Assembly: GCA_003725745.1 (NCBI GenBank)
Contig: RHDP01000001.1
Coordinates: 2,633,501 to 2,697,500, forward strand
Direction of reading: 5' to 3'
Source of the DNA: Streptomyces sp. I6
GTDB taxonomy: Bacteria; Actinomycetota; Actinomycetes; Streptomycetales; Streptomycetaceae
DNA length: 64,000 nt
Shown here: piece after piece, positions 28,699 to 56,288 of the stretch
How the letters are laid out: every line of letters begins with the position of its first letter
Position numbering within the stretch: position 1 is the first letter of the stretch
Made by a program: the position numbers and the translations under genes
The notes under the pieces: model-generated
The model's database searches: none
What the model was told of the DNA's origin: nothing
The model's input: the letters and a program-made list of their open reading frames with translations, nothing else

Positions 28699-29819
28699 TC
28701 AGTACGACTCGGCGTACAGGGTGAACAGATAGTCGCGGTCCACCGGGCCCGCCGGGTCGTTGTCGAGGTTGCCCGTCACGCCCTCGACCAGCCGGTCCAG
28801 GTCGTCCCTGGCCACCCCGCAGTCCCGCATCCGGGCCGCCAGACCCGCTGAGGCCAGGAGCCCGCCCACCGCGTCGTGGACGGTGTCGCCGCCCAGCAGC
28901 TCGGCGACCGCCGCGAACTCGTCCGGCACCAGGGGGCGGTGTGCCGGAGCCAGCTCGGGTACAGCACCGCCAGGCCCCGGCCGTGCGCGAGGTCCACCCC
29001 GGGCAGTGAGCCCATGGCCTGTTGCATCCGGTGGGGAAGACAGGTGCTGACGTTGGCGACGTTGACGCCCCCGAGCAGGGCCGCCCGGCACAGCGCCTCG
29101 CGGGCCTCGGCCGAGTCCTCGCCCTTCAGCACGGCCGGCAGATGCGTGGCGATCAGCTCGATGGCCTGGTGCGCCCGGGCCCGGCTCGCCTCGTCGGCGC
29201 GGGCCGCGACGCAGCCCTCGACGGCATGGGCGAACGAGTCGAAGACGGTCTCCGCCATGACCGCGCGCGGCACCGACGCGATCAGGTCGGGGTCGACGAT
29301 CGCCGTGCGCGGGAAGACGGCGTCACCGCGAATGCCGGACCGGAAGCCGCGCACCGTGTCCGTGATGATCGCCCCCTTGGTCACCTCCGAGCCGCTGCCC
29401 GCCGTCGTGGGCACGGCCAGCAGTGGCAGCCCGGGCGCCTGCGGGCCCAGGGTCACGCCGATGAGGTCCCGCACGCTGCCGCCGGCGGGAGCGGTGACGC
29501 TCACCCCCTTGGCCGCGTCCAGGGCGCTGCCGCCACCGAGGCCGACGACGAGGTCGCAGCCCTGTGCGCGGGCCTGCGCGGTCGCCTCGTCCACCTCGTC
29601 GGACCTCGGGTTGGCCGACACCCGGTCGAAGACCGTGGCGCGCACCCCCGCGGCTTCCAGGGACGTCACGACCCGGTCCAGATAGCCGTGGGTTCGTGCC
29701 GCGCTCCGCCCGGTGACCACGAGCGCGTGCGTGCCGAGCGCCGTCGCGTGTGTCCCGGCCCGGTCCAGTTCACCGCGGCCGAACTCCACGCGGGTAGGGA
29801 CGTCGAGGTCCACCTTCAC
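28699..29819 (-). pseudogene. Iron-containing alcohol dehydrogenase (FomC/PhpC-like), frameshifted
   Basis: This is a group III metal-dependent alcohol dehydrogenase of about 373 residues after one base is restored. NAD(P) binding: VVGLGGGSALDAAKG. Then PTTAGSGSEVT and the metal ligands in ETVFDSFAHAVEG, CLPHRMQQAMG and LAHGRGLAVLYP. The frame breaks at about 28935 in a C-run (RHTAP[L]VPDEFAAVAELLGGD). GTG 29819 overlaps the PGK-like stop as GTGA. FomC, PhpC and DhpG of other phosphonate clusters are enzymes of this family that reduce phosphonoacetaldehyde. Here a three-carbon phosphono-aldehyde made by the ArgC-like enzyme is the better guess. It is the last gene of the leftward operon. Confidence 0.82.
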
Positions 29820-31096
29820 GTGCTTACTCCATTCATGGCGTTGTCGTCGGCGGGGGGCGTGGCCTCGTCCCTCGCGCCGCGGGCGTCGGTGTGCCTCGCG
29901 CCGCGGGCGTGGTCGCGCAGCGCGTCCAGCACCGCACAGGTACCGGTGGCGAGCAGTTGCAGCGCCGACCCGCCGCCCGTCGACACCGGTCCCTGCCAGG
30001 GGAGTTCGGCCACCGTGTCGCCGCCCAGCAGCAGTGCCGGCCCGGACGCGCGCGAGAGCGCGGACAGGACGGCGTCCGCGGACCTCGCCTGCCCGTCGAG
30101 ATACCGGGACGGTGTCCCGGCCAGCACTGCGGAGCCGGCGGCGGCCAGGGACCGGGCCGCCCACGGCTCCAGTTCGAAGTCCACGACGGCGTGCCCGGCC
30201 GGTACGCCGTCGGCGACGGTGACGGGCCCGGCCTCGCCCGTGATGCGCCGTCCGTCCACGGGTGCCACCCACACCGTCCGGGGCACGTGCAGCCGCGCCT
30301 TCGCCGGTGCGTCCAGCACACCCCGTACGGCGTCCAGGCAGGCGTCGGGCCTGCTGCCCAGGTCGGAGGCGCCGAGGTCGTGGCCCAGGGCGCGCAGCAC
30401 CGTGTTGAGCACCACGCCGCCCGGCACCACCAGGTCGCAGGTGCGCATCGCGTGGACCAGGCCCACCAGGGTCTTCTCGGGTTTGCGCCCGCCGAGCACG
30501 GCCACGCGGAACACTCCCTCGGGCGGCCGCGCCCAGGGCGTGAGGAACCGGACCTCCGTCACCAGGCTCTGTGCGGCATGGCCCGGCAGCAGACGCAGCA
30601 CACCGGTGTTGGAGGCATGGGCGCGGTGGGCCTTGGAGAAGCCGCCCACGGCGACCGCGTCGCCGAGCAGCGCGAACCTTCGGGCCAGTTCCGGATCGCC
30701 CCGTTCCTCCCCGGCGTGGTGACGGGTGTTCCCGAAGACGGCTATCTCACCGGGCGCCAGTGCCTCGGCGGCCCGCACCGCCGCGTCCGAGGCGTTCTCG
30801 GGGATGTAGCGCACCCGGCGGCCCAGCCGCCGCGAGAGATGGCCGGCGACGTGGTCCAGCGCGGTCGCGGTGCCGTCGTGGTGGCTGCCCTGGTGGGACA
30901 GGACGGCCACCCGCGCGCCGGCCCCGGCGAGCCGCCGCAGATCGGTCAGCTCGCTGTCGATGCGCCCGGTGCTGGTCAGGGCCGCGTCCACGTTGAACCC
31001 GGCCGAGAGGATCCAGCGTTCGCCCGCGACGATGTCGCGTGCGCTCAGCAGCGGCACGCCGCCGAGCGGGTCGACCCGACCGGTGTCAGAGGCCAT
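29816..31096 (-). CDS. Phosphoglycerate kinase paralogue, proposed phosphonolactate kinase
   Basis: This 426-residue PGK-fold kinase keeps the two-domain PGK layout. Conserved: FGNTRHHAGEERGDPELA (PGK: ENTRFHxGEE), SKAHRAHASNTGVLRLLP (AHRAHAS) and the nucleotide end GGDTVAEL. Changed: the triose-site start (PGK DLNVP) reads GFNVDAAL, and the GRPKG loop after LSH reads QGSHHDG. The substrate pocket is therefore probably retuned. Inferred role: ATP-dependent activation of the carboxylate of phosphonolactate, the C-P analogue of 3-phosphoglycerate, to an acyl phosphate. It overlaps the ArgC-like gene by 11 bp and the dehydrogenase by 4 bp. It cannot be the housekeeping PGK by context, which would sit with gap and tpi. 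Confidence 0.85.
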   Translation of the reverse strand: MASDTGRVDPLGGVPLLSARDIVAGERWILSAGFNVDAALTSTGRIDSELTDLRRLAGAGARVAVLSHQGSHHDGTATALDHVAGHLSRRLGRRVRYIPENASDAAVRAAEALAPGEIAVFGNTRHHAGEERGDPELARRFALLGDAVAVGGFSKAHRAHASNTGVLRLLPGHAAQSLVTEVRFLTPWARPPEGVFRVAVLGGRKPEKTLVGLVHAMRTCDLVVPGGVVLNTVLRALGHDLGASDLGSRPDACLDAVRGVLDAPAKARLHVPRTVWVAPVDGRRITGEAGPVTVADGVPAGHAVVDFELEPWAARSLAAAGSAVLAGTPSRYLDGQARSADAVLSALSRASGPALLLGGDTVAELPWQGPVSTGGGSALQLLATGTCAVLDALRDHARGARHTDARGARDEATPPADDNAMNGVST

Positions 31097-32183
31097 AGGT
31101 GCGCAGACCGGTCGTCTCGTCGTGACCGAGCATCACGTTCATGTTCTGGAGGGCCGAACCCGCCGCTCCCTTGACCAGGTTGTCGCTGACGGAGACGACC
31201 TTGGCGATACCGCGCCGTGCGTCGTAGTCCACACCGATGTGGCAGAAGTTGGAGCCGACCACCCCGGCGACTCCCGGGTACCTGCGGTAGTCCTTGTCGG
31301 TGAGGCCGCCGAGCTGGGGTTCGGCGTTGACCCGGACGAAGAACTCGCCTTCGGCGCCGGTGCCGTAGCGCTCGGTGTAGCGGCTGAGCAGCAGTTCGCG
31401 CGAGAAGTCCTGGCGCAGTTCCTCCCGGACGCGGACGCTCGCCTGGATGTGGATGCCGCGGGCGAAGGGGCCGTGCGCGGTGCTGAGGTCCACGGTGACC
31501 GGTCCGCCGGCCGGGCCGGAGAGCCGGTCCTCCAGCTCGGGCGCGTGCCGGTGGCCCTGGAGGCTGTACGGCAGCATCGACCCGAAGACCTCGGCGTGCA
31601 GGATCTCGGTGCGCGGCTTGACGCCGGCGCCCGTGGTCCCGTTGACCGCCGCGATGTGCAGCGGCGCGCCGGGCTCGGCGAAGCCGGCGGACAGCAGCGG
31701 TTCGAGGCCGAGCAGCGCCGTGATGACGTAGCAGCCCGGGTTGGCCACCAGACGGGACTCGGGCAGCAGGTCCCGGTGGAACTCGGTGACGCCGTAGACC
31801 GCTTCCGGCAGCAGTTCGGGGGCGGTGTGCTCGGCGCCGTACGCCGCCCGGTAGGCCTGTGGGTCGGCGAACCGGAAGTCGGCGCTGAGATCGATCACCC
31901 GGGCCCCTGCCCTGAGCAGTGCGGGGGTCCGGCGCATGGCCTCGCCGGACGGCGTGCACAGGAAGACGACGTCCAGGTCGGCGGCGGCCGCGGTGACCTC
32001 GTCCGCGTCGTGGAACCGCAGCCCGGAGCCGAGCAGGTTCGGGTGCACCCGCTCGAAGGACTCCCCGCCCCGGGACGTGGGCAGGATCTCGGTGACCGCC
32101 GGGTGCCCCAGCAGCAGGCGGCACATCTCGCCGCCCGTGTAGCCGCTGCCTCCGATGACCGCTGCCCGTATGCCGTTGCTCAT
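31086..32183 (-). CDS. ArgC-like acyl-phosphate reductase
   Basis: This 365-residue NADPH-dependent reductase belongs to the N-acetyl-gamma-glutamyl-phosphate reductase family. It has the Rossmann loop VIGGSGYTGGEMCRLL, catalytic cysteine in ANPGCYVITALLGL, VNGTTGAGVKPR, and the HRHAPELED loop. No ArgB, ArgD or ArgJ lies nearby. Instead it is sandwiched between a PGK-like kinase and dehydrogenases, overlapping both neighbours. Inferred role: reduction of phosphonolactyl phosphate to 2-hydroxy-3-oxopropylphosphonate, the analogue of glyceraldehyde 3-phosphate. ATG 32183 overlaps the previous stop as ATGA. A true arginine gene seems unlikely from the context, but only a tree could exclude it. 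Confidence 0.88.
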   Translation of the reverse strand: MSNGIRAAVIGGSGYTGGEMCRLLLGHPAVTEILPTSRGGESFERVHPNLLGSGLRFHDADEVTAAAADLDVVFLCTPSGEAMRRTPALLRAGARVIDLSADFRFADPQAYRAAYGAEHTAPELLPEAVYGVTEFHRDLLPESRLVANPGCYVITALLGLEPLLSAGFAEPGAPLHIAAVNGTTGAGVKPRTEILHAEVFGSMLPYSLQGHRHAPELEDRLSGPAGGPVTVDLSTAHGPFARGIHIQASVRVREELRQDFSRELLLSRYTERYGTGAEGEFFVRVNAEPQLGGLTDKDYRRYPGVAGVVGSNFCHIGVDYDARRGIAKVVSVSDNLVKGAAGSALQNMNVMLGHDETTGLRTYGL

Positions 32184-33283
32184 AGGTTCCATCCGTTCGT
32201 GAACTCGTCCGGGTCGGTGGTCACATGCAGCATGATCTTGCCGGTGGGGACATCGGCCCGGTCCATCAGACGCAGCGCCGACCCGGTGCCGGCGAGTGGG
32301 AAGTGGTGGGTGACCATCGGCAGGACGTCGAGGGTCCCGGCCGCGAGCCGGTCGATCACCTCGGTGAAGTCCCGGGGCGTCGACAGCGCCGATCCGTGCA
32401 CGGTCACCTCGCGTCCGACGAGCGCGTTGAGGTCGACCGGGTGCCGGTCCTCGAAGTAGCTGACGATCACGATGTCGCCGCCGGGCCGTACCGCGCGCAG
32501 CGCCTGGTCGGTGACGCCGGGGTAGCCGGCGGCGATCACCACCACGTCCGCCGGACCGGCCAGGGCCTCGAGCGCCTCGGGCACCGGGTCGCCGTCGCGG
32601 GCGTCGGCGTAGGCGTCGGCGCCGAGACCGAGGGCGAGTCCACCCTTCTCGGGGCCGACGTCCACGCAGGCCACCGTGGCGTGGCCGAGCTGCCGGGCGG
32701 CGATCAGGCAGCTGAGGCCGATCGTTCCGGAGCCGAGGACGAGGACGCTGCGGCCCGCGCCCTCGCCGACGAGCCGTACCGCGTGCAGGCCGATGGAGAG
32801 CGGTTCGACGAGCGCACCGGCCACGGGATGCAGGTCGGGGGGCAGCCGGTGGGCCATGTTGGGCCGCAGGACGACCAGTTCGGCGAACGAGCCGGTCCAG
32901 TCGAGGTGGCTGAGGTTCAGCTTCCGGGTGCACAGGTGGGGTGCGCCGTGCAGGCACTGGGCGCAGGCGTCGCAGTGCGAGAAGGCGGCCGAGCACGCCC
33001 GGTCCCCCACGGTGAAGCCGGTCACGTCGGCGCCGACGGCCACCACGGTCCCGGAGAACTCGTGGCCGAGGACGGCGGGTGCCGTCTTGTAGGGGTGGGT
33101 GCCGCGGTAGGCGGCGAGGTCGGAGCCGCAGATGCCGGTGGCGTCGACCCGGACGAGCAGTTCGCCGCGGCCGGGCTCGGGGGCGGCGGTGTCCTGGTGG
33201 GCGATGGTTCGACGGCCGGTGAGGACGGCCGCCTTCATGGTCTTCGGCCCGGTGGTCCCGGGCGGGACGGTGTTCGGCGTCAT
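32180..33283 (-). CDS. Zinc-dependent alcohol dehydrogenase (MDR)
   Basis: This 367-residue medium-chain dehydrogenase has catalytic zinc ligands in TGICGSD and GHEFSGTV, structural zinc cysteines in HCDACAQCLHGAPHLC, NAD loop VLVLGSGTIGLSC and a C-terminal MDRADVPTGKIMLH. It resembles threonine/sorbitol dehydrogenases. The start ATG 33283 lies 2 bp after the stop of the hydroxyacid dehydrogenase; the domain proper begins at MKAAVLTG, 15 residues in, which is an alternative start. It is the second gene of the leftward operon. Its role could be oxidation or reduction of a hydroxypropylphosphonate, overlapping in chemistry with the iron enzyme at the operon end. Confidence 0.88.
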   Translation of the reverse strand: MTPNTVPPGTTGPKTMKAAVLTGRRTIAHQDTAAPEPGRGELLVRVDATGICGSDLAAYRGTHPYKTAPAVLGHEFSGTVVAVGADVTGFTVGDRACSAAFSHCDACAQCLHGAPHLCTRKLNLSHLDWTGSFAELVVLRPNMAHRLPPDLHPVAGALVEPLSIGLHAVRLVGEGAGRSVLVLGSGTIGLSCLIAARQLGHATVACVDVGPEKGGLALGLGADAYADARDGDPVPEALEALAGPADVVVIAAGYPGVTDQALRAVRPGGDIVIVSYFEDRHPVDLNALVGREVTVHGSALSTPRDFTEVIDRLAAGTLDVLPMVTHHFPLAGTGSALRLMDRADVPTGKIMLHVTTDPDEFTNGWNL

Positions 33284-33285
33284 GC

Positions 33286-34236
33286 TCAGCACACCCGGTT
33301 CGTCGCCGGGCGGCCGGCCAGGACGGCGCGCAGGTCCGCGGCGAGCAGGCGGCCGACCCGGTCCTGGGCGTCGGTGGTGGTGGCGCCGATGTGCGGGGTG
33401 AGCACCACGTTGTCCAGGGCCGCCAGGGCGGGGGTGCCGCACTCCCGCCCGTGCACGTCGAGGGCGGCGCCGGCGATCACGCCGTCGTTCAGCGCCCGCA
33501 GCAGGGCGTCCTCGTCGACGACACCGCCGCGGGAGACGTTGATGAGGTAGGAGTCGCTGTTCATCCGGGCCAGTTCCCCGGCCCCGATGAGGTTCCTCGT
33601 ACGGTCGGTGAGCGGTACCGCGAGGCACACCATGTCGGCCGCGCCGAGGAGGTCGGTCAGGGCGACCCGTTCGATCCCGCGGCCGCGCAGTTCCTCGTCG
33701 CGGGCCGGCGTGGCGCGGTCCACGGCGGCGAGCACGCGCATGTCGAACGCCGAGCCGAGCCGGGCGATCCGGGCGCCGATGGGGCCGAGTCCGACCACGC
33801 CGAGAACCCGGTCCGCGAGGCCCGGCCCGGCGAGCCGGGGCTTGTTCCACTGCCCGCTGCGGACCTGCCGGTCGGCGAGGGCGATGTTGCGGGTCACGGC
33901 GAGCATGAGCCCGATGGCCAGATCGGCGACAGCGGGTGCCGAGACGCCGGGGAAGTTGAACACCTGCACTCCCGCCGCGCGGCAGGCGTCCAGGTCGATG
34001 TTGTCGGTCCCCGAACCGGCCCTCGCCACGGCCTTCAGACGGTGACCGGAGCGGATGACGTCGCCGGTGACGGTCACGCCGCTGCGCACGACGAGGGCGT
34101 CGGCACCGGCGGCCAGCTCGACGAGTTCGTCATGGCCGGGGTGCAGCCGCACCACGACCTCGTGGTCCTGTTCCAGGTCCGCGAGGGCGCCCGGAGACAC
34201 GGGGTCCAGGACGACGACGCGTGCTCGATAGGTCAT
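33286..34236 (-). CDS. D-2-hydroxyacid dehydrogenase, proposed phosphonopyruvate reductase
   Basis: This 316-residue NAD-dependent D-isomer-specific dehydrogenase is related to phosphoglycerate dehydrogenase catalytic domains. It has VARAGSGTDNIDLDAC, Rossmann loop VGLGPIGARIARL, catalytic Arg in INVSRGGVVDEDAL, Glu in ALDVHGREC and His in LTPHIGAT. No ACT regulatory domain is present. It is the first gene of the operon divergent from pepM. A 2-oxoacid reductase next to PEP mutase, with no phosphonopyruvate decarboxylase in sight, suggests reduction of phosphonopyruvate to phosphonolactate, as described for the valinophos route (VlpB). Start ATG 34236 (MTYRARVVV) begins the fold. Confidence 0.88.
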   Translation of the reverse strand: MTYRARVVVLDPVSPGALADLEQDHEVVVRLHPGHDELVELAAGADALVVRSGVTVTGDVIRSGHRLKAVARAGSGTDNIDLDACRAAGVQVFNFPGVSAPAVADLAIGLMLAVTRNIALADRQVRSGQWNKPRLAGPGLADRVLGVVGLGPIGARIARLGSAFDMRVLAAVDRATPARDEELRGRGIERVALTDLLGAADMVCLAVPLTDRTRNLIGAGELARMNSDSYLINVSRGGVVDEDALLRALNDGVIAGAALDVHGRECGTPALAALDNVVLTPHIGATTTDAQDRVGRLLAADLRAVLAGRPATNRVC

Positions 34237-34265
34237 GTCAATGATCCTGCACGCCCATGACAGAG

Positions 34266-34283
34266 TTGGCAAGAAATTGCCAA
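34266..34283. promoter_or_regulatory. Palindrome TTGGCAA-GAAA-TTGCCAA in the divergent pepM promoter
   Basis: A perfect 7-4-7 inverted repeat lies 29 bp upstream of the dehydrogenase start and directly 5' of a possible pepM -35 box. The core GGCAA-N-TTGCC recurs upstream of the XRE regulator at 57307-57319. It is a candidate site for that cluster regulator. Confidence 0.55.
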
Positions 34284-34290
34284 AAAGCTG

Positions 34291-34451: not shown

Positions 34452-35312
34452 ATGCTCAAGCGCAGCTATCCCTCGTTCCGCTCCGTACTCGCCGCGCACG
34501 ACGTGGTCCGCCTCGCGGGTGCCCACCACGCACTCAGCGGTGTGCTGGCCCAGGAGGCCGGATTCCAGGCGGTGTGGTCGTCGAGCCTGGAGGTGTCGGC
34601 CTCCCGGTGCCTGCCCGACGCGAGCATCCTGAGCATGACCGAGTACCTGGAGGCGGCCGCCAACATCCAGAAGGCCCTCGACATCCCCGTAGTCGCCGAC
34701 GTCGACACCGGCTACGGCGGCAACTACAACGTGGCCCACATGGTCAACGAGTTCGAGGGCGCCGGCATCACCGCGGTGTGCATGGAGGACAAGCTGTTCC
34801 CGAAGATGAACAGCTTCGCGAACGGCGACCAGACGCTGCTCGACACCGCGGCCTTCGCCTGCAAGATACGGACCGCCAAGACCGTGCAGTCCACCGACGA
34901 CTTCTTCGTCATCGCCCGCACCGAGGCCCTGATCTCCGGCGCGGGCGTCGACGAGGCGGTGCGCCGCTGCAACGCCTACGCCGACGCCGGCGCCGACGCC
35001 GTGCTCATCCACTCCAAGGCGCGCACCAGGGATGAGGTGCTCGCCTTCCTGGACCGGTGGGACGACCGCGTCCCGGTGGTCATCGTCCCCACCACCTACC
35101 CGGACTGGCACATCGACGAGGTGCGCGCGGCCGGCGTCTCCGTCGTCATCTACGCCAACCAGGGCATGCGCGCCGCGCTCTCCGCCATGCGCAGCACCTA
35201 CCGCGCCATCTACGAGGCGGGCCACACCACCGCGCTGGAGTCGGAGATCGCCTCGGTACGGGACATCTTCGACCTTCAGCGGATGGCCGACTGGCAAAAG
35301 CTCGACGCGTGA
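34452..35312 (+). CDS. pepM: Phosphoenolpyruvate mutase
   Basis: This 286-residue enzyme forms the C-P bond by rearranging phosphoenolpyruvate to phosphonopyruvate, the entry step of nearly all natural phosphonates. It belongs to the isocitrate lyase / PEP mutase superfamily. The decisive motif is MEDKLFPKMNSF, the EDKxxxxxNS gating loop specific for mutases (residues about 113-124). VVADVDTGYGGNYNVAHMVN carries the Mg-binding aspartates, and ARTEALISG and LIHSKARTRDEV complete the barrel. ATG 34452 is preceded by AAAGG. It is the first gene of the long rightward operon and divergent from the five-gene reductive operon. No partner decarboxylase (Ppd) is adjacent. Confidence 0.95.
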   Translation: MLKRSYPSFRSVLAAHDVVRLAGAHHALSGVLAQEAGFQAVWSSSLEVSASRCLPDASILSMTEYLEAAANIQKALDIPVVADVDTGYGGNYNVAHMVNEFEGAGITAVCMEDKLFPKMNSFANGDQTLLDTAAFACKIRTAKTVQSTDDFFVIARTEALISGAGVDEAVRRCNAYADAGADAVLIHSKARTRDEVLAFLDRWDDRVPVVIVPTTYPDWHIDEVRAAGVSVVIYANQGMRAALSAMRSTYRAIYEAGHTTALESEIASVRDIFDLQRMADWQKLDA

Positions 35313-35364: not shown

Positions 35365-36333
35365 ATGACAGTCATCACGGGGGCCGACGAGCTCCTCGAC
35401 ACCGAGGTCTACCTCGACCTGCGGCGGCTCCTGGACTGCCGCCTGTACCTGAAGTGCGAGGGCTTCAACTTCGCCGGATCGGTGAAGGTGCGGCCGGCGG
35501 CCTGGATGGTGGACACCGCACAGCGCGACGGGATCATCGGCCCCGACTCCGTTCTGATCGAATCCTCCTCCGGCAACCTCGGAGTCGCGCTCGCCGTCAT
35601 CGCGGCGGCGAAGGGAATCCGGTTCGTCTGCGTCACCGACCCCAAGTGCAACCCCTCCGCGACCGACCTGATGAAGGCCCTCGGTGCCGAGGTCGTCGTG
35701 GTCGACGAACCGGACGCCACCGGCAGCTATCTCGCCGCACGCAAGGCCCGTGTGCGCGAGCGCTGTGCGCAGGACCCGCGGTACGTCTGGCTCAACCAGT
35801 ACGAGAACCCGGCGAACTGGGTGGCGCACTACGAGAACACGGCCGCCCTGATCGCCAAGCAGTTCCCGGGCCTGGACACGCTGTTCATCGGCACCGGCAC
35901 CGGCGGGACCCTCATGGGCTGTGCCCGCTACTTCCGTGAACACAGCCCGCGGGTGCGCATCGTGGCCGTCGACAGCGTCGGATCGGTGAACTTCTCGGGC
36001 GCACCCGGGCCCCGGCACGTCCCGGGGCTGGGCGCGAGCACGCCCATGCCGCTGATCGACCCGTCCGTCGTGGACGAGGTCATACGGGTCGACGAACGGG
36101 ACACCATCCGCATGTGCCGGCGCCTCGCCGCCCGCGGCGTCCTCCTCGGCGGCTCCTCCGGCACCGTGGTCAGCGCGGCCGCCGGGTGGCTGGCGCGGCA
36201 CGGCTCCGCGGACCACACCGCGGTCGCCATCGCCCCCGACCTCGGCGAACGGTACATCGACACGATCTACAACGACGCCTGGGTGGCGCGCCACTACCGC
36301 CGGGGCGCGCAGGACCTCTTGGAGAACCAGTGA
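35365..36333 (+). CDS. SbnA-like PLP enzyme for 2,3-diaminopropionate synthesis
   Basis: This 322-residue fold-type II PLP enzyme belongs to the cysteine-synthase/SbnA family. The PLP lysine is in NFAGSVKVRPA, the phosphate loop is GTGTGGTLMGCARYF, and ESSSGNLGVALA is the Asn-loop. SbnA joins O-phosphoserine and glutamate to N-(1-amino-1-carboxyethyl)glutamate. The following gene is its usual SbnB partner and overlaps it as GTGA, which makes L-Dap production the best reading over cysteine synthesis. GGGAGG (35358-35363) precedes ATG 35365. Dap would be a building block for a phosphonopeptide or an amine donor. Confidence 0.85.
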   Translation: MTVITGADELLDTEVYLDLRRLLDCRLYLKCEGFNFAGSVKVRPAAWMVDTAQRDGIIGPDSVLIESSSGNLGVALAVIAAAKGIRFVCVTDPKCNPSATDLMKALGAEVVVVDEPDATGSYLAARKARVRERCAQDPRYVWLNQYENPANWVAHYENTAALIAKQFPGLDTLFIGTGTGGTLMGCARYFREHSPRVRIVAVDSVGSVNFSGAPGPRHVPGLGASTPMPLIDPSVVDEVIRVDERDTIRMCRRLAARGVLLGGSSGTVVSAAAGWLARHGSADHTAVAIAPDLGERYIDTIYNDAWVARHYRRGAQDLLENQ

Positions 36334-40304: not shown

Positions 40305-40577
40305 ATGAACACACCCTGGGACAGCCGTTTCGAGGCGCTGGTGATGCGGCATGTCGAACTCGGCCGCGACGGCGGACTGCGGCCGGACGACGATCTGCCG
40401 GGCCGTGGACTCGACTCCATCGCCATCGTCGAACTCGTCGTCTCCCTGGAGGAGACCTACGACATCGAGATCCCCGACGAGCGGCTCACCCAGCAGTCGT
40501 TCACGACCCCGGGCACCCTGTGGTCGGTCGTCTCCGGGCTGGTGGAGCGTGAGCCCGGCCGGGAGGGCGCCGCGTGA
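40305..40577 (+). CDS. Acyl/peptidyl carrier protein
   Basis: This 90-residue discrete carrier protein has phosphopantetheine attachment serine in GRGLDSIAIVELVVSLEE (Ser38). Helix II and III (DIEIPDERLTQQSF, TPGTLWSVVSGLV) are typical. It would carry the aminoacyl group loaded by the free-standing adenylation enzyme. A downstream condensation-type protein or ATP-grasp ligases could then use it. A 75-bp gap precedes it, the only real break in the first half of the operon. The stop overlaps the next start (GTGA). Confidence 0.9.
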   Translation: MNTPWDSRFEALVMRHVELGRDGGLRPDDDLPGRGLDSIAIVELVVSLEETYDIEIPDERLTQQSFTTPGTLWSVVSGLVEREPGREGAA

Positions 40578-48389: not shown

Positions 48390-49690
48390 GCGAGGCATCC
48401 GGCTTCCTGAACGCGACCGCCGCCGGCCGGGGCGCCGACTCCGAGGTCTGGGAGAACACCCACGAGACCGACGAACTGGTCTGCCGGGAGGGCGCGGTGG
48501 AACGCCGCGTCGCCGCCACCACCACGGCCACCGCCCTCACCGTCTGGAAGGACGGGGCCGAGGGATACGCCGTGCACATCCCCGGCGGAGCCGACGCCGC
48601 GCTCGTCGACACCGCCCTCGCGGTCGGCCGGGCCCTGGGCTCCGCGGCGCCCGCGCCCGCCCGCCCCACCACGCCGGCCGCGGGGCCCCGGCTGCTCGCG
48701 CAACCGCGGCTCGACGAAGCCGTGGCCCGGCGCCTCGCCCGGCTCACCGCGGGCCCAGCCGACGTGGACGTCGAGCTGCGCGCCCGGGCCGACCGGTCGA
48801 GGGTCCTGCTGCACCGCGCCGGCTGCGAGCCGCTGCGGCACACGACGGGCACCGTCCAGTTGCAGGCCCGGATCACCGCCAAGGGCCCGCGCGTCGGGTT
48901 CATCGCACACCAGATGTTCGGGCGGTCGGTGGACGCCGTTTTGGAGGACGCCGCAGGCGCGGAGCTGGACGACCTGACGGCCCTCGCCCGCGTGCTGGCC
49001 CGCGAACCCGTGCCCCGGATCTCCCACGACGACGTCCTGGTGGACGGGCGTGTGATGGTGAAGCTGCTCATGCTCGCCGTGCCCGCCTTCCAACTGGACT
49101 CCGTCCTGGAGGGCCGCTCGCCGCTGGCCGGCCGCACCGCCGAGCGGATCGGCAGCGCGGGCCTGTCCCTCGTGGACGACCCCACGGCGGCGGACAGCCC
49201 CCTGCCCACGCCCTGGGACGACGAGGGCACCGCGTGCCGCCCCACCACGCTGCTGGAGAACGGCGTGCTGCGCGGCTTCCTCAGCTCGCGCCGCACCGCC
49301 GCCCGGGCCGGCACGGTCAGCACCGGCTCGGGCCGCCGGGGTCCCTCCGGCGAAATGCCCACGGTGCAGCCGGGGTTCCTGGCCCTGCGCCCCGCCACCT
49401 CGCTCGGGGACGCCCCGCTCGACGGCAGGACGCTGCTGAAGGTGGTGCAGGCGAACGGCGCCCACACGTCGAACGCCATCACAGGCGACTTCTCCATCGG
49501 CGCCAACGCGGTCCTCCTCACCCCCGACGGGGCCCGGCACAACGCCGGCAACATCACCCTCGCCGGCAACGTGTTCCGGTTGCTCGCCCGGATCGACGGC
49601 CATGACGGGCGGACGCGTCTCCACCGCAGCCACACCTCCTTCATCGCGAGCCCCGGCGTCTGGACGTCCGGGCTCACGATCGGGAGGTGA
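48386..49690 (+). CDS. TldE/PmbA-family subunit
   Basis: This 434-residue partner of the preceding TldD has the same fold but no HExxxH motif, as expected for TldE. Recognisable parts are SLVDDPTAADSPLPTPWDDE, TTLLENGVLRGFLSSRRTAA and the C-terminal FSIGANAVLLTPDGARHNAG. Together they should form the heterodimer that encloses a peptide channel. Starts by ATGA overlap with tldD, so stoichiometric expression is likely. The pair lies between oxidative tailoring genes and the exporter. Confidence 0.88.
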   Translation: MSEASGFLNATAAGRGADSEVWENTHETDELVCREGAVERRVAATTTATALTVWKDGAEGYAVHIPGGADAALVDTALAVGRALGSAAPAPARPTTPAAGPRLLAQPRLDEAVARRLARLTAGPADVDVELRARADRSRVLLHRAGCEPLRHTTGTVQLQARITAKGPRVGFIAHQMFGRSVDAVLEDAAGAELDDLTALARVLAREPVPRISHDDVLVDGRVMVKLLMLAVPAFQLDSVLEGRSPLAGRTAERIGSAGLSLVDDPTAADSPLPTPWDDEGTACRPTTLLENGVLRGFLSSRRTAARAGTVSTGSGRRGPSGEMPTVQPGFLALRPATSLGDAPLDGRTLLKVVQANGAHTSNAITGDFSIGANAVLLTPDGARHNAGNITLAGNVFRLLARIDGHDGRTRLHRSHTSFIASPGVWTSGLTIGR

Positions 49691-49697
49691 CCGCGCC

Positions 49698-50954
49698 ATG
49701 ACACTGCTGAGGCACCGGGAGTTCCGCCTCTTCTGGGCCGCGCAGACGGCCAGCACCCTCGGCGCCAACATGAGCCGGGTGGCGCTGCCGCTGCTGGCCG
49801 CGACGACGCTGGCCGCCACCCCCTTCCAGATGGGGCTGCTGCAGGCGGCGCAGACCATCGCCTTCCTGCTCATCGGCCTTCCGGCGGGCACGCTGGTCGA
49901 CCGGATGCACCGACGGCCGATCCTCATCGCCTGCGATCTGCTGCGCGCGCTGTTCCTGACGTGCCTGGTCGTCGGGTTCGCGCTGGACTGGGTCGGCTTC
50001 ACCGGGCTGATGGCGGCGACACTGGCGATCGGATTCGCCACCGCCTTCTACGAAATCGCCTACCAGTCGTACATCCCGGCCGTGGTGGGACGGGCCCGCC
50101 TCGTCGAGGGCAACGCCAGGCTGGAGAGCACCAACGCCGCGGCCCGGCTCGCCGGGCCCACGCTCGGCGGCTCGCTCGTGCAGCTGCTGGGCGCGACGGC
50201 CGCCGTCGCCTCCCAGGCCGTGAGCCATCTGGCGTCGGCGCTGCTGGTGTCCCGGATGCGCACCGTCGAGGAGGCACCGGCCCGCGGGAACCGGCGCCGG
50301 ATGTCGGCCGAGATCGGCAGCGGCCTGCGGTTCGTGCTGCGGCAACCGGTGTTCCGGGCCATCACCGGCTCCGCCGCGACGTACAACTTCTTCTACGCGG
50401 TCATGCTGCCGCTGGTGATGCTGCTGCTGGTCAAGGAGCTGGGGCTGTCGGGGACCACCGTCGGCGTGCTGATGGCGGTCAGCGGACTCGGCGGCATCCT
50501 CGGGGCCGCGGCGGCCGGCCGGCTCGCCCGGCGGCTCGGGCAGGTGCGCGCCATGTGGCTGGCGTATCTGCTGACCGTGCCGACCACCTTGCTGATCCCG
50601 CTGTCGCACGGCGGCTGGGGCATCGCCCTGTTCGCCGTGCCCTGGTTCACCGTCAGCTTCGGCATCGTCGTCTACAACGTCGGCCAGGTCAGCATCCGGC
50701 AGGCCCTGTGCCCGCCGGACATGCTGGGGCGGATGAACGCCAGCGTGCGGTTCATCGTCTGGGGCATCCTCTCGCTCGGCTCGCTCACCGGCGGTGCCCT
50801 CGGCGAATGGATCGGCGTGCGCGGCGGCCTGTTCGTGGCGGGCGCCGGGATGACCGCCGGAGTCCTGTGGCTGCTGCTGTCCCGGCTGGTCCGGATGCGC
50901 CATCTGCCCGCCGAGGAGCCGCAGGCGGTACCGGACGCCGCCCCCTCCCCCTGA
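49698..50954 (+). CDS. MFS exporter
   Basis: This 418-residue major-facilitator membrane protein has 12 predicted hydrophobic segments. N-terminal REFRLFWAAQTASTLGANMS and the loop LPAGTLVDRMHRRPI (motif A-like, G-x3-D-R-x2-R-R) place it with the DHA/enterobactin-exporter-type (MFS_3) group. The ATG is at 49698, 7 bp after the tldE stop. Inferred role: export of the phosphonate product and self-resistance. The C-terminal 25 residues are soluble and proline-rich. Confidence 0.9.
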   Translation: MTLLRHREFRLFWAAQTASTLGANMSRVALPLLAATTLAATPFQMGLLQAAQTIAFLLIGLPAGTLVDRMHRRPILIACDLLRALFLTCLVVGFALDWVGFTGLMAATLAIGFATAFYEIAYQSYIPAVVGRARLVEGNARLESTNAAARLAGPTLGGSLVQLLGATAAVASQAVSHLASALLVSRMRTVEEAPARGNRRRMSAEIGSGLRFVLRQPVFRAITGSAATYNFFYAVMLPLVMLLLVKELGLSGTTVGVLMAVSGLGGILGAAAAGRLARRLGQVRAMWLAYLLTVPTTLLIPLSHGGWGIALFAVPWFTVSFGIVVYNVGQVSIRQALCPPDMLGRMNASVRFIVWGILSLGSLTGGALGEWIGVRGGLFVAGAGMTAGVLWLLLSRLVRMRHLPAEEPQAVPDAAPSP

Positions 50955-51006
50955 CACGACCTCGAAACCGACCGGCCCCCGAAGAGCCTGATCAAGGAGC
51001 ACCCCC

Positions 51007-52287
51007 ATGTCCGACCGGAAGACTCCCCGCTACGTGGTCTTCGTCGAGTCCCCGCTGACCGGCGCGGGCCAGGACTGCGCCCGGTTCCTGCTGGAGCAGG
51101 GCGTGACCCCCGTGGTGGTGGCGGCCCGGCCCGCAGCCATGGCGCCCTCGCTGATCCGCGACTACGCCGCACTGGGCGTGGAGGTCCGCGCCTGCGACAC
51201 CCATGACGCCGACGCCGTCGTCGCGGCCTGCCGGGAAATCGCCGCGGACGGCGAACTCGTCGGAGTCGCCTCGGTGTACGAGTACTACTGCGACATGGGC
51301 GCCCAGGTCGCCGCCCGGCTGGGGCTGCCCGGCCCGGACCCGGCGGCCGTGGCCGCCTGCCGTTCCAAGGCGTCCATGCGTGCCGCGATGGCCGGGACGC
51401 CCGGCCTCAACCCGCGCTTCCGGGTGTGCTCCTCCGCTGACGAGGCCGCGTCCGCCGGGACCTCGATCGGGTTCCCCGTCGTCGTCAAGCCGCTGGACCT
51501 CACCGGCAGCCTCTGGGTCCGCCGGTGCGAGACGGCCGAGGAGGTCGACGCGATCACCCGGGAGATCCTGGGGATCGGCGAGTACCTCGGCCAGGAAGTC
51601 ACCCCCCGGGTGGTCGTCGAGGAGTGCGTACCCGGCGCCGAGTACTCCGCAGAGGTCATGCACGGCAAGGTGCTCGGCCTCACCGAGAAGATCTGCAGCG
51701 CGCCCCCGCTGTTCCTGGAGATGGGCCACGTCTTCCCGGCGGAGGTCACCGGAGCGCGGGAGCGCCTGCTCGTCGAGAAGGCCGAGCAGGCCGTCAAGGC
51801 GATCGGCCTGACCTGGGGCCCCGCCCATGTCGAGCTCAAGCTGACCGCCGACGACAAGGACGCCCGGGTCATCGAGGTCAACGGGCGGATCGCCGGCGAC
51901 CGGATCCCCGAGGCGGTGCGGATCGCGAGCGGCGTCGACATGTGCCGCCTCCACATGACCGCGCTGCTGGGCGCCGCCCCCGACCTGAACGTCGTCTGCG
52001 ACCGCACCGCGGTCGTCCACTTTTTGATGTCGGCGCCGCTCGGCCGCCTCGACGCCATCGACGGCGTCGCCGAGGCGCAGGCCCTGGAGGGGGTGCACGA
52101 GGTGCACATGCGCCCCGGTGTGCAGCCGGGCATGGTCTACAGGGCCAACGGGTCGAACCGGGACCGCGCCGCCTGGATCATCGCCGAGGGCGCCGACCGC
52201 GACGAGGCGCTGGGCCGGGCCGCGGCGGCGGGCGAGAAGCTGACCTTCACCTGGTCGCCGGTGGACGAGTCCCAGGTCAGGGGCTGA
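51007..52287 (+). CDS. ATP-grasp ligase 1
   Basis: This 426-residue carboxylate-amine ligase is of the ATP-grasp superfamily. A preATP-grasp Rossmann-like domain (1-110) precedes the nucleotide-binding core: FPVVVKPLDLTGSLWVRRC, VVVEECVPGAEYSAEVMHGK, and Mg site RVIEVNGRIAGDRIPE. The N/E-N-R-x-G-G-D-like pattern is close to carnosine-synthase/L-amino-acid ligases. It probably activates a carboxylate as acyl phosphate for attack by an amino acid. It is the first of three ATP-grasp genes here, so the product may hold several amide bonds. GGAG lies before ATG 51007. Confidence 0.88.
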   Translation: MSDRKTPRYVVFVESPLTGAGQDCARFLLEQGVTPVVVAARPAAMAPSLIRDYAALGVEVRACDTHDADAVVAACREIAADGELVGVASVYEYYCDMGAQVAARLGLPGPDPAAVAACRSKASMRAAMAGTPGLNPRFRVCSSADEAASAGTSIGFPVVVKPLDLTGSLWVRRCETAEEVDAITREILGIGEYLGQEVTPRVVVEECVPGAEYSAEVMHGKVLGLTEKICSAPPLFLEMGHVFPAEVTGARERLLVEKAEQAVKAIGLTWGPAHVELKLTADDKDARVIEVNGRIAGDRIPEAVRIASGVDMCRLHMTALLGAAPDLNVVCDRTAVVHFLMSAPLGRLDAIDGVAEAQALEGVHEVHMRPGVQPGMVYRANGSNRDRAAWIIAEGADRDEALGRAAAAGEKLTFTWSPVDESQVRG

Positions 52288-52292
52288 CCACC

Positions 52293-53741
52293 GTGCGAAC
52301 CACCCCCGAGCACCGCGCGGTGCGCTTCGCGGCGGGCGAGGCACGCCGGGCGCCACTCACCTGGAGCCAGCAGTACTACCTGGCCGAAACGGACGCCGCC
52401 CGGCCGCTGGGGCGTGGGCTCGCCATCAGGAGGCTGTACGAACTGCGGGCCGGTGTGCGCGAGCGGGACGTCGTGGCGGCCCTGCGGGACCTGCTGCACC
52501 GCTTCGAGGGCCTGCGCAGCACGGTCGTCCGTGACCCGGCCGGTACGGGCGGCGCGGACGACTGCGCCGGAGCCGGGCAGCGCGTCCACGCGGAGGGCAC
52601 CCTGCACCTCGCCGTCCACGAGGTGGACGGCGCACAGGGGCCGGCGGAGGCCGCGGCCGCCGTACTGGACGAGCTGGCCGCGACGCCGTTCGACGTCGCC
52701 GAGGAGTGGCCGGTACGCGCGGCGCTGATCGGCCCCGCCGGCCTGCCCCGCTTCCTGGCACTGGTGTTCAGCCATGTCGCCGTGGACGCGTTCGCCCTGC
52801 TGCCGGTCACCGACCACCTCGTCTCCGCCGTCGCCGTACGCCGTCCCGAGTGGCCTCCCGCCCGAAGCCGGGACGCCGGCCGCAGCCCTCGTGAACAGGC
52901 CGCCGCCGAGGCGGCCGAGCCGGCCCGCCGCTCGGCGGAGCGCGCCCTGCGCCGAGCCGCCGACACCTTCCGCACCATGCCGGCGGCGCCCCCCGCCCCG
53001 GACGGCGCCGCGGCCACCGACCGGTACCGGTTCCTGTCGCGCACCTCGCCCGCACTGCACCAGGCGGCCGGTGCCGTGTCGCTGCGCACGGGGGAGAGCG
53101 TGGCCACCGTGCTCGCCGCGGCCATGATCGCGGTCGACGCCCACCTCGCGGACAGCCCGACGGGGTACCTGCAGCTGCTCGCCGCCAACCGGTCGCGCCC
53201 CGAGACCGTCAACGCCGTGGTGCCCTGTTCGCAGCCCGTGCCGTTCTGCGTGCCCGTGGCCGGCTCCTCGTTCCCGAAGCTGGTCCGTGCCACCGCATCG
53301 GCCGCCCTGGGCGCGTTGCGCCTCGGCTCGTATCCGCCGGACCGGCTGGCCGAGCTGCACCGCGTCGTGGAGCGGGAGCGGGGCGTCCGCCTGGACATCA
53401 CGCCCACGCTCAACTACCGGCCCCGGGCGGGCGCCCCGCCCCGCCGCGAGGTCACCGCGGCGGAGCTGGAGGAGTCCGCGGCGGCCGGTGTCACCCGCTG
53501 GATCCCCGGCGATCTGGTGTGGCGGTCCACCCGCTATCTGAGCGCCGACGTGAGCGAGTCCGGTATCCGGCTGGTGCTTCAGGTGGACACCCGGGTGCAC
53601 ACTCCCGGCTGGGCCGAGCGCTGGACGGCGGCGCTGGAGCGGCTGCTGTGCGCGGCCGCGACCCGGGAGGTGGCCGCGGAGGAGCTGCAGCGCGTGGTGA
53701 AGCAGTCGCAACCGACACGTCAGGAGCCGAGATGTCGCTGA
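52293..53741 (+). CDS. Condensation-domain-like acyltransferase
   Basis: This 482-residue protein has the two-lobed fold of NRPS condensation domains. TWSQQYYLAETD opens like C1 (S-x-A-Q-x-R-x-W/Y). The active-site motif reads SHVAVDAFALLP in place of HHxxxDG: the catalytic second histidine and the aspartate remain, while the first His is Ser and the Gly is Ala. A later segment, LDITPTLNYRP, resembles C5. It stands alone with no carrier or adenylation domain fused. It could move the aminoacyl group from the discrete carrier protein to an amine or alcohol acceptor. Start GTG 52293; the stop overlaps the next start by 10 bp. Confidence 0.78.
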   Translation: MRTTPEHRAVRFAAGEARRAPLTWSQQYYLAETDAARPLGRGLAIRRLYELRAGVRERDVVAALRDLLHRFEGLRSTVVRDPAGTGGADDCAGAGQRVHAEGTLHLAVHEVDGAQGPAEAAAAVLDELAATPFDVAEEWPVRAALIGPAGLPRFLALVFSHVAVDAFALLPVTDHLVSAVAVRRPEWPPARSRDAGRSPREQAAAEAAEPARRSAERALRRAADTFRTMPAAPPAPDGAAATDRYRFLSRTSPALHQAAGAVSLRTGESVATVLAAAMIAVDAHLADSPTGYLQLLAANRSRPETVNAVVPCSQPVPFCVPVAGSSFPKLVRATASAALGALRLGSYPPDRLAELHRVVERERGVRLDITPTLNYRPRAGAPPRREVTAAELEESAAAGVTRWIPGDLVWRSTRYLSADVSESGIRLVLQVDTRVHTPGWAERWTAALERLLCAAATREVAAEELQRVVKQSQPTRQEPRCR

Positions 53742-54973
53742 GCGGTACGCAACGGACCGTGGAGTTGGTCGGCGCGGGTGTCATGGCGGAGGGCTATCTC
53801 CGCGCGGCACAGCGCATGGGCCTGAGGGTGGGGCTGGTGGAGACCGCCGCCCGGCACGCCGAACTGGCGCCCCGGTTCCCCTGCGTCGTCGACTTCGAGC
53901 CGGTGGAGGGAGTCCCGGCCCGGGACGAGGCCTGGCTGCCCCCGGCGATGACGCTGGCCGGCCGGCTGGCCCCGGACGCGGTGCTGGGATTCGCCGAGCC
54001 GCATGTGCTCGCCACGGCGCTCGTACAGCACCGGCTCGGCGTGCCCGGGCCTGGCCTGGCCGCCGCCACGGTCTCCCGCAACAAGGCGTTGCAGCGGGGT
54101 GAGTTCCACCGCGCGGGCCTGCCGCAACCCGGCCACCGGCACACGGTACGGCTGTCCGACGCTTCCGCATGGGCCCTGGAGCGACTGCCCGTGGTCGTCA
54201 AACCCGTGTCGCTGCAGGGCAGCATGGGCGTCGAGCGGATCGACACCGCCGAGCAGTGGCAGGACGCCGTGCGCCGCCGCGACGACGAGGGCCCCCTGTT
54301 GGTCGAGAGCTATGTCGAGGGGCCGGAGTACAGCGTCGAGGCGCTGGTCCGGGACGGGCAGGTGCTGTTCACCAACCTCACCCGCAAGGAGACCACCGGG
54401 GCCCCGTTCTTCGTCGAGCTGTTCCACGAGGCCGGCCACGGCGCCCACCGCCCGGTGCTGCGGAAGGCGGCCGACGAGCTGTGCCGCGGCGTGGTGGCGA
54501 CGCTGGGTCTCGACACCGGGATCGCGCATCTGGAGTTCAGGGCCCGAGCCGACGACGACCTCGTGATCATGGAGGTCGCGGTACGCACCCCGGGCGACCA
54601 CATCCTGGAGATCATCTCCCTGGCGTACGGATTCGACGTGTACGAGGCATGCCTGCGGCTGGCCCTCGGTGAGCAGCCGCGGCTGCCGCCGGCGGACCGG
54701 GCAGCCGCGCGTTCCGCGGGCAGCCTGTTCCTCGGCGCGGGCCGGGCCGGGGTCCTCGCCGCACTCGACGTGACGGACTGGGCGGCCCGGGAGGGCGTGG
54801 TCCACCATGCGGCGCGGATGGCACCCGGCGCGGCCGTACGCCCCGCCGAGAACTCCGGGGACCGGCTGGCGTACGCCGTGCTCGACTGCCCGGACCCGAC
54901 GGAACTCGCCGCTCTGGCCGCGCGGTTGCGGGCGGCCGCCCGCGTGGAGATCACCGGCGCCGCCTCCTCCTGA
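53732..54973 (+). CDS. ATP-grasp ligase 2
   Basis: This 413-residue ATP-grasp carboxylate-amine ligase has LPVVVKPVSLQGSMGVERID (ATP-binding lysine), LLVESYVEGPEYSVEALVRD, and the Mg-binding VIMEVAVRTPGDHILEI. The last of these has V-R-T in place of the N-x-R found in ligases 1 and 3, a departure worth noting. ATG 53732 has AGGAG five bases upstream; upstream codons fall inside the condensation gene. It probably forms one amide bond of the product. It is paralogous to the flanking ATP-grasp genes but not a recent duplicate, judging by low similarity. Confidence 0.88.
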   Translation: MSLSGTQRTVELVGAGVMAEGYLRAAQRMGLRVGLVETAARHAELAPRFPCVVDFEPVEGVPARDEAWLPPAMTLAGRLAPDAVLGFAEPHVLATALVQHRLGVPGPGLAAATVSRNKALQRGEFHRAGLPQPGHRHTVRLSDASAWALERLPVVVKPVSLQGSMGVERIDTAEQWQDAVRRRDDEGPLLVESYVEGPEYSVEALVRDGQVLFTNLTRKETTGAPFFVELFHEAGHGAHRPVLRKAADELCRGVVATLGLDTGIAHLEFRARADDDLVIMEVAVRTPGDHILEIISLAYGFDVYEACLRLALGEQPRLPPADRAAARSAGSLFLGAGRAGVLAALDVTDWAAREGVVHHAARMAPGAAVRPAENSGDRLAYAVLDCPDPTELAALAARLRAAARVEITGAASS

Positions 54974-55032
54974 GCCGCGCCCGCGCTCAGCCGTCCGACG
55001 GAACCCCAGCACGCACAGGACAAGGAAGACGT

Positions 55033-56288
55033 ATGCCAGCAGAGCGAGTCTTGATCATCGGCGGCCGGATCGAGAACGTGCGCAAGGCCGTGGAGCAGGG
55101 GCTCGGGGTCGTGTACCTCCAGCAGCCTGGGCAGTTCACCCCCGAACACGCCAAGCTGGTCGACGCGGCCCTCCTCGTCGACTTCGCGGACTGGTCCGTG
55201 GTGGAGCCCATCGTTACGGCCGCCCACAAGGTCTACGGCTTCACCCGCGTGGCCACCACCGGCGAGGCGGGCGTGGAGACCGCCGGACGGATCAACGACC
55301 TGCTGGGCCTCGGCGGCGTCTCGCACGGGGTCGCCCGGCTGCTCCGGGACAAGCTGAGCATGCGCGAGCATCTCACCCGAGTCGGGGCCACCACGGTACC
55401 GGCGGCCGAGGTCACCGACCGGGCGGCGCTGGAGGCGTTCGGGGCCGCGCACGGCTACCCGTTCATCGTGAAGCCGGTCGACGGCATCGCGAGTCTGGGC
55501 ATCCAACTGGTGCGCGGACCGCAGGAGCTCGGCGCGGCCTGGGAGCGCATCGTCGAACTGCGCGCATCCGAGCACCAGTTCGCCCAGTACTTCCCCCTGG
55601 ACCGCTTCATCGCCGAGGGCTACGTCGAGGGGCCCGAGTTCAGCGTCGAGGCCTTCACCTTCGAGGGCCGGCATGTGATCGTCGCCGTCACGGAGAAGCT
55701 GACCGACGGCAACTTCGTGGAGGCGGGGCACGTGGTCCCGGCCCGTATCGGCACGGACGCCGAACGCGCCGTCGAGGCGGCCGTCGTGGAGTTCCTGGAC
55801 GCCGTGGGCGTGGTCCACGGTCCCACCCACACCGAGCTGCGGCTCTCCCCGGACGGGCCACGGGTGATCGAGTCCCACAACCGGCCGGGGGGCGACCGGA
55901 TCAGGGATCTGGTGGAAGCGGCGTACGGCTTCGACATGGAGGCCTACACGGTCGCCTGGCCGTGCCCCGGACTGCCGGCCCCGACCGGGCGGCCCCGCTG
56001 GTGCAGGCCGCCGCGACCCGTTTCCTGACCGCCGAGCCCGGGGTGGTGTCGAGGATCGAGGGCGCGGAGGAGGCCCGCGCCCTGGAGGGGGTCGTGGACC
56101 TGGACCTGTCGGTCCGCGCCGGGAGCGAGGTGGCCGCGCTCAGGTCCAGCTGGGACCGGATCGGCCAGGTGATCGCGGTCGGTGCCGACGCCGACGGGGC
56201 ACTGGCGACCTGTGACGAGGTGTGCGCCAGGACGGTCGTCGTCACCGGGGACGCCCCGGGGGACGACGCATCCGGGGCGGGCCGGTGA
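55033..56288 (+). pseudogene. ATP-grasp ligase 3, frameshifted near its end
   Basis: Restored, this is 418 residues. It contains YPFIVKPVDGIASLGIQLVR, FIAEGYVEGPEFSVEAFTFE, HTELRLSPDGPRVIESHNRP and GGDRIRDLVEAAYGFDMEA, a complete ATP-grasp core with Mg-binding N-R-P-G-G-D. The frame breaks at about 55985-56000. In the other frame the C-terminal domain continues as APLVQAAATRFLTAEPGVVS and VVDLDLSVRAGSEV to the stop at 56288. Catalytic residues all lie before the break. It is the third ligase of the cluster and the last clear biosynthetic gene. Confidence 0.85.

Follow-up and report, generated by a model that had tools for sequence, protein, structure and literature searches.

A Streptomyces phosphonate gene cluster in which a glycolysis-like five-gene module appears to take the place of phosphonopyruvate decarboxylase

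In the biosynthesis of valinophos, as reportedly established by Zhang et al. in JACS in 2022, a dehydrogenase is followed by a kinase and a reductase that resemble steps of glycolysis and of arginine biosynthesis and lead to phosphonolactaldehyde. In other papers VlpB is the phosphonopyruvate reductase and VlpF esterifies valine (PMC12723261, PMC11867202), and phosphonolactate is made by a 2-hydroxyacid dehydrogenase (2HADH; PMC12871164). A further source names PcxL, which forms an oxime on an aminophosphonate, together with FzmM and CreE, and describes the Streptomyces sp. V2 aspartate N-hydroxylase of Protein Data Bank (PDB) entry 8cp2, which gives nitrosuccinate via successive oxidations (PMC10404684). 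The gene cluster considered here lies at positions 28699–56288 of a 64,000-nucleotide stretch of Streptomyces sp. I6 (the window; contig RHDP01000001.1, positions 2,633,501 to 2,697,500); it shares enzymes with both kinds of system, and in it a five-gene module appears to take the place of phosphonopyruvate decarboxylase (Ppd).

Gene calls were made by codon usage and families were assigned from Pfam and NCBIfam scans of the window proteins (Table 1). The cluster consists of a five-gene minus-strand operon and, divergent from it, a plus-strand run of 19 genes that opens with PEP (phosphoenolpyruvate) mutase (PepM) at 34452. Read from 34236 to 28699, the operon encodes a 2HADH, a zinc-dependent alcohol dehydrogenase (Zn-ADH), an ArgC-like reductase, a phosphoglycerate kinase (PGK)-like kinase and an iron-dependent alcohol dehydrogenase (Fe-ADH), with consecutive overlaps of 7, 4, 11 and 4 bases. 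A preliminary description, made from the letters and open reading frames of the window, had named PepM with its EDKLFPKMNS loop and this divergent operon, and the family matches bear out both.

No match to Ppd was obtained in the window by tblastn with two kinds of Ppd. In the host genome (7.05 Mb, two contigs, 87% completeness) the model TIGR03297 gave four matches, none over its cut-off and the best at 33 bits; such sub-cut-off matches were also present in 13 of 14 control genomes, and a Ppd elsewhere in this genome was rejected on these grounds. Ppd was likewise not found in seven other genomes that carry the kinase and the reductase (best weaker match 4.8e-12). The same whole-genome search recovered Ppd as two halves (1e-37 to 1e-38 and 1e-25 to 1e-27) in all three genomes of the diaminopropionate-Ppd type described below. 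The missing Ppd of the preliminary description thus stands, and the decarboxylase elsewhere that it had named as a counter-argument was found in neither the host genome nor the seven others.

When 391 genomes of the order were searched with the N-oxygenase, 13 matches fell below 1e-200, its own among them, and the next stood at 1.6e-37; the 12 other loci and that of SBT349 were fetched for comparison. The gene order in seven of the 12 is PepM, Ppd, a PhnW-like aminotransferase and the N-oxygenase. Three more, the diaminopropionate-Ppd loci, contain PepM, SbnA/SbnB (SbnA only as a 142-residue piece in G094), an adenylation enzyme, a nucleotidyltransferase, a FomA-like kinase, the PhnW-like enzyme, the N-oxygenase and a maleylpyruvate-isomerase-like gene, with Ppd carried as two genes. 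The last two, L070 (G287) and L074 (G105), are without PepM or a PhnW-like gene in the stretch and were left out of further counts, as were three loci without the N-oxygenase (F-6492, Nocardia and G278). The resulting set of 16 loci with PepM, PhnW-like enzyme and N-oxygenase comprises the ten Ppd loci and those of the window, NRRL S-455, NRRL B-2873, SBT349, Umezawaea and Clavibacter. Ppd is present in ten and the module in six, with no locus having both and none having neither. From this distribution it is concluded that the five-gene module probably takes the place of Ppd and would feed the PhnW-like enzyme. Between the window and the three diaminopropionate-Ppd loci PepM is 74–75% identical, while SbnA/SbnB, the adenylation enzyme, nucleotidyltransferase, FomA-like kinase, PhnW-like enzyme and N-oxygenase are 53–71% identical (59–65% for the last two). 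The seven other Ppd loci, assigned by gene content to the phosphonocystoximate/hydroxynitrilaphos (PcxL) type, share with the window the adjacent PhnW-like and N-oxygenase genes, at 48–52% identity, but carry Ppd where the window has the C3 module.

The reading to which a probability of about 0.55 is given is that a module keeping all three carbons replaces phosphonopyruvate decarboxylation and leads to a product aminated at C2 and N-oxygenated. It builds on the observed gene content, homology, Ppd-for-module exchange, lack of a Ppd match and residue patterns, and all substrates and products of the following pathway are predicted. The 2HADH would reduce phosphonopyruvate to phosphonolactate, which the PGK-like kinase would convert to an acyl phosphate and the ArgC-like reductase to phosphonolactaldehyde. 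The Fe-ADH would then give 2,3-dihydroxypropylphosphonate and the Zn-ADH would oxidize this to 3-hydroxy-2-oxopropylphosphonate. Between them the two dehydrogenases would thereby shift the carbonyl group from C3 to C2 and bring it beta to phosphorus, the arrangement seen in phosphonoacetaldehyde, on which PhnW usually acts. Triosephosphate isomerase carries out a comparable C3-to-C2 carbonyl shift in glycolysis. The PhnW-like enzyme would produce 2-amino-3-hydroxypropylphosphonate, which two or three N-oxygenations would convert to an oxime or nitro compound. The kinases, the FomA-like one included, could protect the host or intermediates, and diaminopropionate, the adenylation enzyme, the carrier protein and the ligases could add a peptide part that is absent from the smaller sister clusters; the assignments of the ligases, carrier protein, diaminopropionate genes, TldD/TldE pair and kinases go no further than an outline.

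The likeness to valinophos, which is drawn from pathway descriptions, lies in the combination of PepM with a 2HADH (VlpB) in the absence of Ppd, and in a kinase and reductase, which in valinophos reportedly lead to phosphonolactaldehyde and dihydroxypropylphosphonate and here are PGK-like and ArgC-like proteins of one operon. The window differs in adding the Zn-ADH, PhnW-like enzyme, N-oxygenase, FomA-like kinase and diaminopropionate genes, and a VlpF-type valine ester is a feature of valinophos. The preliminary description had put forward a reductive route resembling that of PGK and glyceraldehyde-3-phosphate dehydrogenase, with valinophos as its nearest relative on the strength of the VlpB step. 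Gene anatomy and the Ppd exchange support the route and the comparison holds, but the kinase and reductase chemistry is reportedly already known from valinophos and so is not new. The proposed end at dihydroxypropylphosphonate has to be revised, as the presence of a second dehydrogenase, a PhnW-like enzyme and an N-oxygenase suggests that the product is aminated and N-oxygenated; such a C3 phosphonate would be of a kind not yet described.

The kinase retains the GGxK lysine and, at what are presumed to be the ligand positions, three of four phosphate ligands, while the Asp23 site is glycine in nine of nine sequences. The site taken to be that of human Arg65 is Ser, Glu or Thr in seven Zn-ADH loci and Arg in F-6492 and G278. 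Identity of the kinase to plasmid-borne PGKs is 26–36% among the matches listed, partly over half the length. The host genome has a separate argC-like gene, with which the reductase shares 41% identity. Phosphoglycerate dehydrogenases are the nearest solved relatives of the 2HADH, and the nearest NCBIfam models to the Zn-ADH are secondary-alcohol dehydrogenases, below cut-off, which speaks for the proposed C2 oxidation. That the kinase, reductase and dehydrogenases are primary-metabolism paralogues unrelated to the phosphonate, as their family names alone might suggest, is very improbable: they form a compact operon next to PepM in Streptomyces, Umezawaea and Clavibacter, the argC-like gene is separate, and the kinase paralogue is rare, occurring in two of 292 further genomes within the order at an E-value of 1e-40 and in none of 395 other Actinomycetota at 1e-60. 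Such an origin of the kinase and reductase was accordingly set aside as unlikely on identity and rarity.

Scanning genome contigs with patterns from an alignment of the PGK paralogue (A1) yielded 518 candidate stretches, and eight of these were confirmed as loci. In NRRL S-455 and B-2873 the entire set (28060–58649), with the DUF402 gene at one end and the HTH/TPR regulator at the other, recurs at 80–97% protein identity, and the gene order is therefore not due to chance. SBT349 has a shorter version with 12 open frames, in which the PGK-like and Fe-ADH sequences share one frame and the FomA-like and PhnW-like sequences another, and with no match for SbnA or the nucleotidyltransferase. Umezawaea and Clavibacter carry PepM, the five-gene module, the PhnW-like enzyme and the N-oxygenase, with SbnA again not found in these loci; the thymidylate-kinase-like gene is present in SBT349 and Clavibacter. 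The Zn-ADH accompanies the PhnW-like gene in all six module loci and was not found in the 21-kb locus of F-6492, which has PepM, 2HADH, ArgC, PGK and Fe-ADH and is also without a PhnW-like enzyme and N-oxygenase. Nocardia takedensis has ArgC, PGK, Fe-ADH and a partial Zn-ADH at a contig end, and on another contig a 2HADH at the contig start with PepM (45%) and a class III aminotransferase (read by eye), a set that fits a Zn-ADH preceding an amination.

Two genes of the window, those for the Fe-ADH (28699–29819) and the third ATP-grasp ligase (55033–56288), each span two frames. The counterparts in S-455 and B-2873 are single frames (373 residues for the Fe-ADH and 409–412 for the ligase), the only enolase of the genome (G000:C1:2557579-2558420) is likewise seen as two matches in different frames, and completeness is only 87%, so that assembly indels are the likely cause; a reading of both as pseudogenes was rejected given the unbroken frames in the relatives and the split enolase.

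The predicted structure of the N-oxygenase (AlphaFold, mean predicted local distance difference test score, pLDDT, 81) matches 8cp2 in Foldseek at 1.1e-39, with a template modelling (TM) score of 0.88 by target, the first other protein following at 7.5e-7. The enzyme thus shares the fold of the FzmM/CreE aspartate N-hydroxylases, at 26% identity to 8cp2, and differs from them in the aspartate site, where R13, N413 and R416 are all replaced (S14, D536 and A539 in the window). All 16 loci retain the 8cp2 sites R266, R409, R412, R577 and N62; the alignment at R276 is unsure. R13, an aspartate contact in 8cp2, is Ser in all six module loci, Thr in the three diaminopropionate-Ppd loci and Arg in the seven other Ppd loci, and R416 is Ala or Gly, Ile and Ser in the same three groups. 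These residues vary with the upstream branch, and small residues at both sites would leave room for an extra CH2OH group. Positions invariant in the six module loci yet different in the ten Ppd loci number eight in the N-oxygenase and five in the PhnW-like enzyme. No nitrosuccinate-lyase family was among the Pfam matches of the cluster. Of the two N-oxygenase loci left out of the counts, L070 has its N-oxygenase (77%) adjoining a thymidylate-kinase-like gene (76%), with no PepM match in the genome at 1e-15, and L074 has its homologue (51%) amid adenylation-domain genes.

Several observations weigh against C2 amination downstream of a Ppd-replacing module. The support comes from genes and sequences, product and enzyme activities being predicted. 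None of 11 genomes passed the curated cut-off for Ppd, not even those with a real split Ppd, and the Ppd contrast accordingly rests on E-values and on tblastn searches with Ppd proteins taken from these loci. A distant member of the 2HADH family (30%) occurs in one of the Ppd loci, G094. The 16 loci are not independent cases: the six that carry the module come from three lineages (Streptomyces, Umezawaea and Clavibacter) and do not form one clade in the trees drawn, where branching order is mostly open. The PepM tree groups the three diaminopropionate-Ppd loci with the four module loci of Streptomyces at 88/88, a value below the firm-support mark of the tool, with a long-branch warning for Clavibacter and F-6492, and no PepM position marks the module loci. 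Nocardia takedensis is without a close N-oxygenase (the best at about 37% over half the length), so that the Zn-ADH is not strictly tied to PhnW and the N-oxygenase. The Fe-ADH is nearest to the ErcA and choline dehydrogenase models, with lactaldehyde reductase only next and none near cut-off. In the N-oxygenase, N413, a change of which abolishes 8cp2 activity, is D, D, D, G, P and P in the module loci and so shows no consistent pattern; W51 is His in all loci, and V571 is Phe in module and PcxL-like loci and His in the other three, so that neither site tells these two groups apart.

The PhnW-like enzyme might also aminate phosphonolactaldehyde directly. Amination at C3 would give 3-amino-2-hydroxypropylphosphonate and, after N-hydroxylation, a hydroxamate precursor resembling FR-33289. 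PhnW enzymes act on aldehydes, phosphonolactaldehyde is already an intermediate and an N-oxygenase is at hand; this alternative is nevertheless considered unlikely, as it leaves both alcohol dehydrogenases without a role and places the amine gamma to phosphorus, whereas the 59–65% identical relatives in the diaminopropionate-Ppd loci should handle a beta amine. Somewhat less probable still is a valinophos-like pathway to dihydroxypropylphosphonate in which the PhnW-like enzyme and N-oxygenase build a different portion of the molecule, with diaminopropionate or aspartate as conceivable starting compounds. The module together with ATP-grasp ligases, as in valinophos, would agree with this, as would aspartate being the FzmM substrate (PMC10404684). 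However, the two enzymes stay with the module in SBT349, Umezawaea and Clavibacter, three loci in which no SbnA was found and the module has no ATP-grasp match in its vicinity, and the aspartate contact R13 is Ser here.

The loci record a natural exchange of the early phosphonate branch, decarboxylation to C2 or a proposed glycolysis-like module to C3, between otherwise homologous clusters, and the swap yields exact and cheap assays. A more specific and doubtful extension is that the cluster makes 3-hydroxy-2-nitropropylphosphonate, or stops at the oxime, and that this compound serves as warhead in a natural peptide antibiotic; on the way to it, two dehydrogenases acting as an aldehyde-to-ketone relay would replace an isomerase. 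Anderson, Weiss and Cleland reportedly described 3-hydroxy-2-nitropropylphosphonate in 1984 as a synthetic reaction-intermediate analogue of enolase, and such an N-oxygenated C3 phosphonate would mean that nature has reached an enolase inhibitor designed by chemists. No publication dealing with this cluster or with a nitrophosphonate as a natural product was found in the literature searched, a weak negative with most subscription journals lying outside; no match joined enolase with nitropropyl, and the titles listed for enolase with nitronate were off subject. SF-2312 is a natural phosphonate inhibitor of enolase, according to PMC13302981.

The carrier protein and three ligases of the preliminary description are present, the ligases being of the ATP-grasp type, and the cluster also has a separate adenylation enzyme and an unassigned, perhaps condensation-like protein. 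The predicted model of the latter was unusable (pLDDT 36). The PhnW-like, N-oxygenase and FomA-like genes had gone unnoticed in that description. The FomA-like kinase belongs to the family of the fosfomycin kinase FomA but falls well under the NCBIfam cut-off, and the final 94 bases of its gene overlap the PhnW-like gene.

Table 1. Genes of the cluster and its edges (window coordinates), with best family evidence and proposed roles
Feature	Position	Strand	Evidence and remarks
DUF402 protein, cluster edge	28060..28668	+	PF04167; kept in S-455, B-2873 and SBT349
Fe-ADH	28699..29819	-	PF00465 1e-50; two frames here; proposed aldehyde to primary alcohol
PGK-like kinase	29816..31096	-	PF00162 1.6e-41; proposed substrate phosphonolactate
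ArgC-like acyl-phosphate reductase	31086..32183	-	TIGR01850 314 bits, over cut-off 233.6; NPGCY kept
Zn-dependent dehydrogenase	32180..33292	-	Best NCBIfam IolM, threonine 3-dehydrogenase, none over cut-off; proposed C2-alcohol oxidation
2-Hydroxyacid dehydrogenase	33286..34236	-	TIGR01327 276 bits (cut-off 454); proposed phosphonopyruvate reductase
PEP mutase	34452..35312	+	PF13714 2.2e-57; TIGR02320 305 bits (cut-off 319.6); EDKLFPKMNS in translation
SbnA-type diaminopropionate synthase	35365..36333	+	TIGR03945 over cut-off
SbnB-type dehydrogenase	36363..37412	+	TIGR03944 over cut-off
Stand-alone amino acid adenylation enzyme	37435..39036	+	TIGR01733 over cut-off
Nucleotidyltransferase-like protein	39033..40229	+	PF14907 2.6e-43
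Carrier protein	40305..40577	+	PF00550 5e-8
Thymidylate-kinase-like P-loop kinase	40574..41221	+	PF02223 6e-4, below cut-off
FomA-like kinase	41218..42249	+	NF000338 2e-64, 217 bits (cut-off 550); PDB 3d40 8.7e-61
PhnW/AepZ-like aminotransferase	42156..43283	+	TIGR03301 357 bits (cut-off 360.8); PDB 1m32 2.1e-60
FzmM/PcxL-type flavin N-oxygenase	43334..45562	+	Sole PDB sequence match 8cp2, 8.6e-43
Maleylpyruvate isomerase/DinB-like protein	45566..46279	+	PF11716 4.5e-22
PhzG-like FMN oxidase	46389..46988	+	NF038138 over cut-off
TldD/TldE-like protease pair	47034..49690	+	PF19289 1.4e-60 and 2.5e-42
MFS exporter	49698..50954	+	PF05977 5.6e-35
ATP-grasp ligase 1	51007..52287	+	PF13535 2.3e-17, PF18603
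Unassigned, perhaps condensation-like protein	52293..53741	+	SHVAVDA read by eye; no Pfam/NCBIfam match
ATP-grasp ligase 2	53759..54973	+	PF13535 1e-20
ATP-grasp ligase 3	55033..56288	+	Two frames: ligase body 55033-56028, LAL_C2 in frame ending 56288
HTH/TPR regulator, other edge	57522..58649	+	Kept in S-455, B-2873 and SBT349

A protein with a C5-epimerase C-terminal domain at window positions 59392–61167 is apparently outside the cluster. Elsewhere in the genome (G000:C1:3205216-3205992, L015) is a second PepM-like gene, 40% identical, with EDSAYPKCNS in place of EDKxxxxxNS; its neighbours are a 2HADH-family gene, a radical S-adenosylmethionine (SAM) protein, a 53-residue peptide and an aKG-HExxH-type peptide hydroxylase domain. 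The group may represent a ribosomally synthesized and post-translationally modified peptide (RiPP) cluster with phosphonate enzymes. Contig C4 of G278 (L011, L012 and L090) similarly carries two peptides of about 50 residues, a radical SAM-like protein 61% identical to that of L015 and an HExxH protein, together with PepM (EDKVFPKRNS), a 2HADH (51%) and the PGK paralogue (60%). No ArgC-like match was found within the 55 kb fetched from this contig, and the acyl phosphate itself may serve as donor there.

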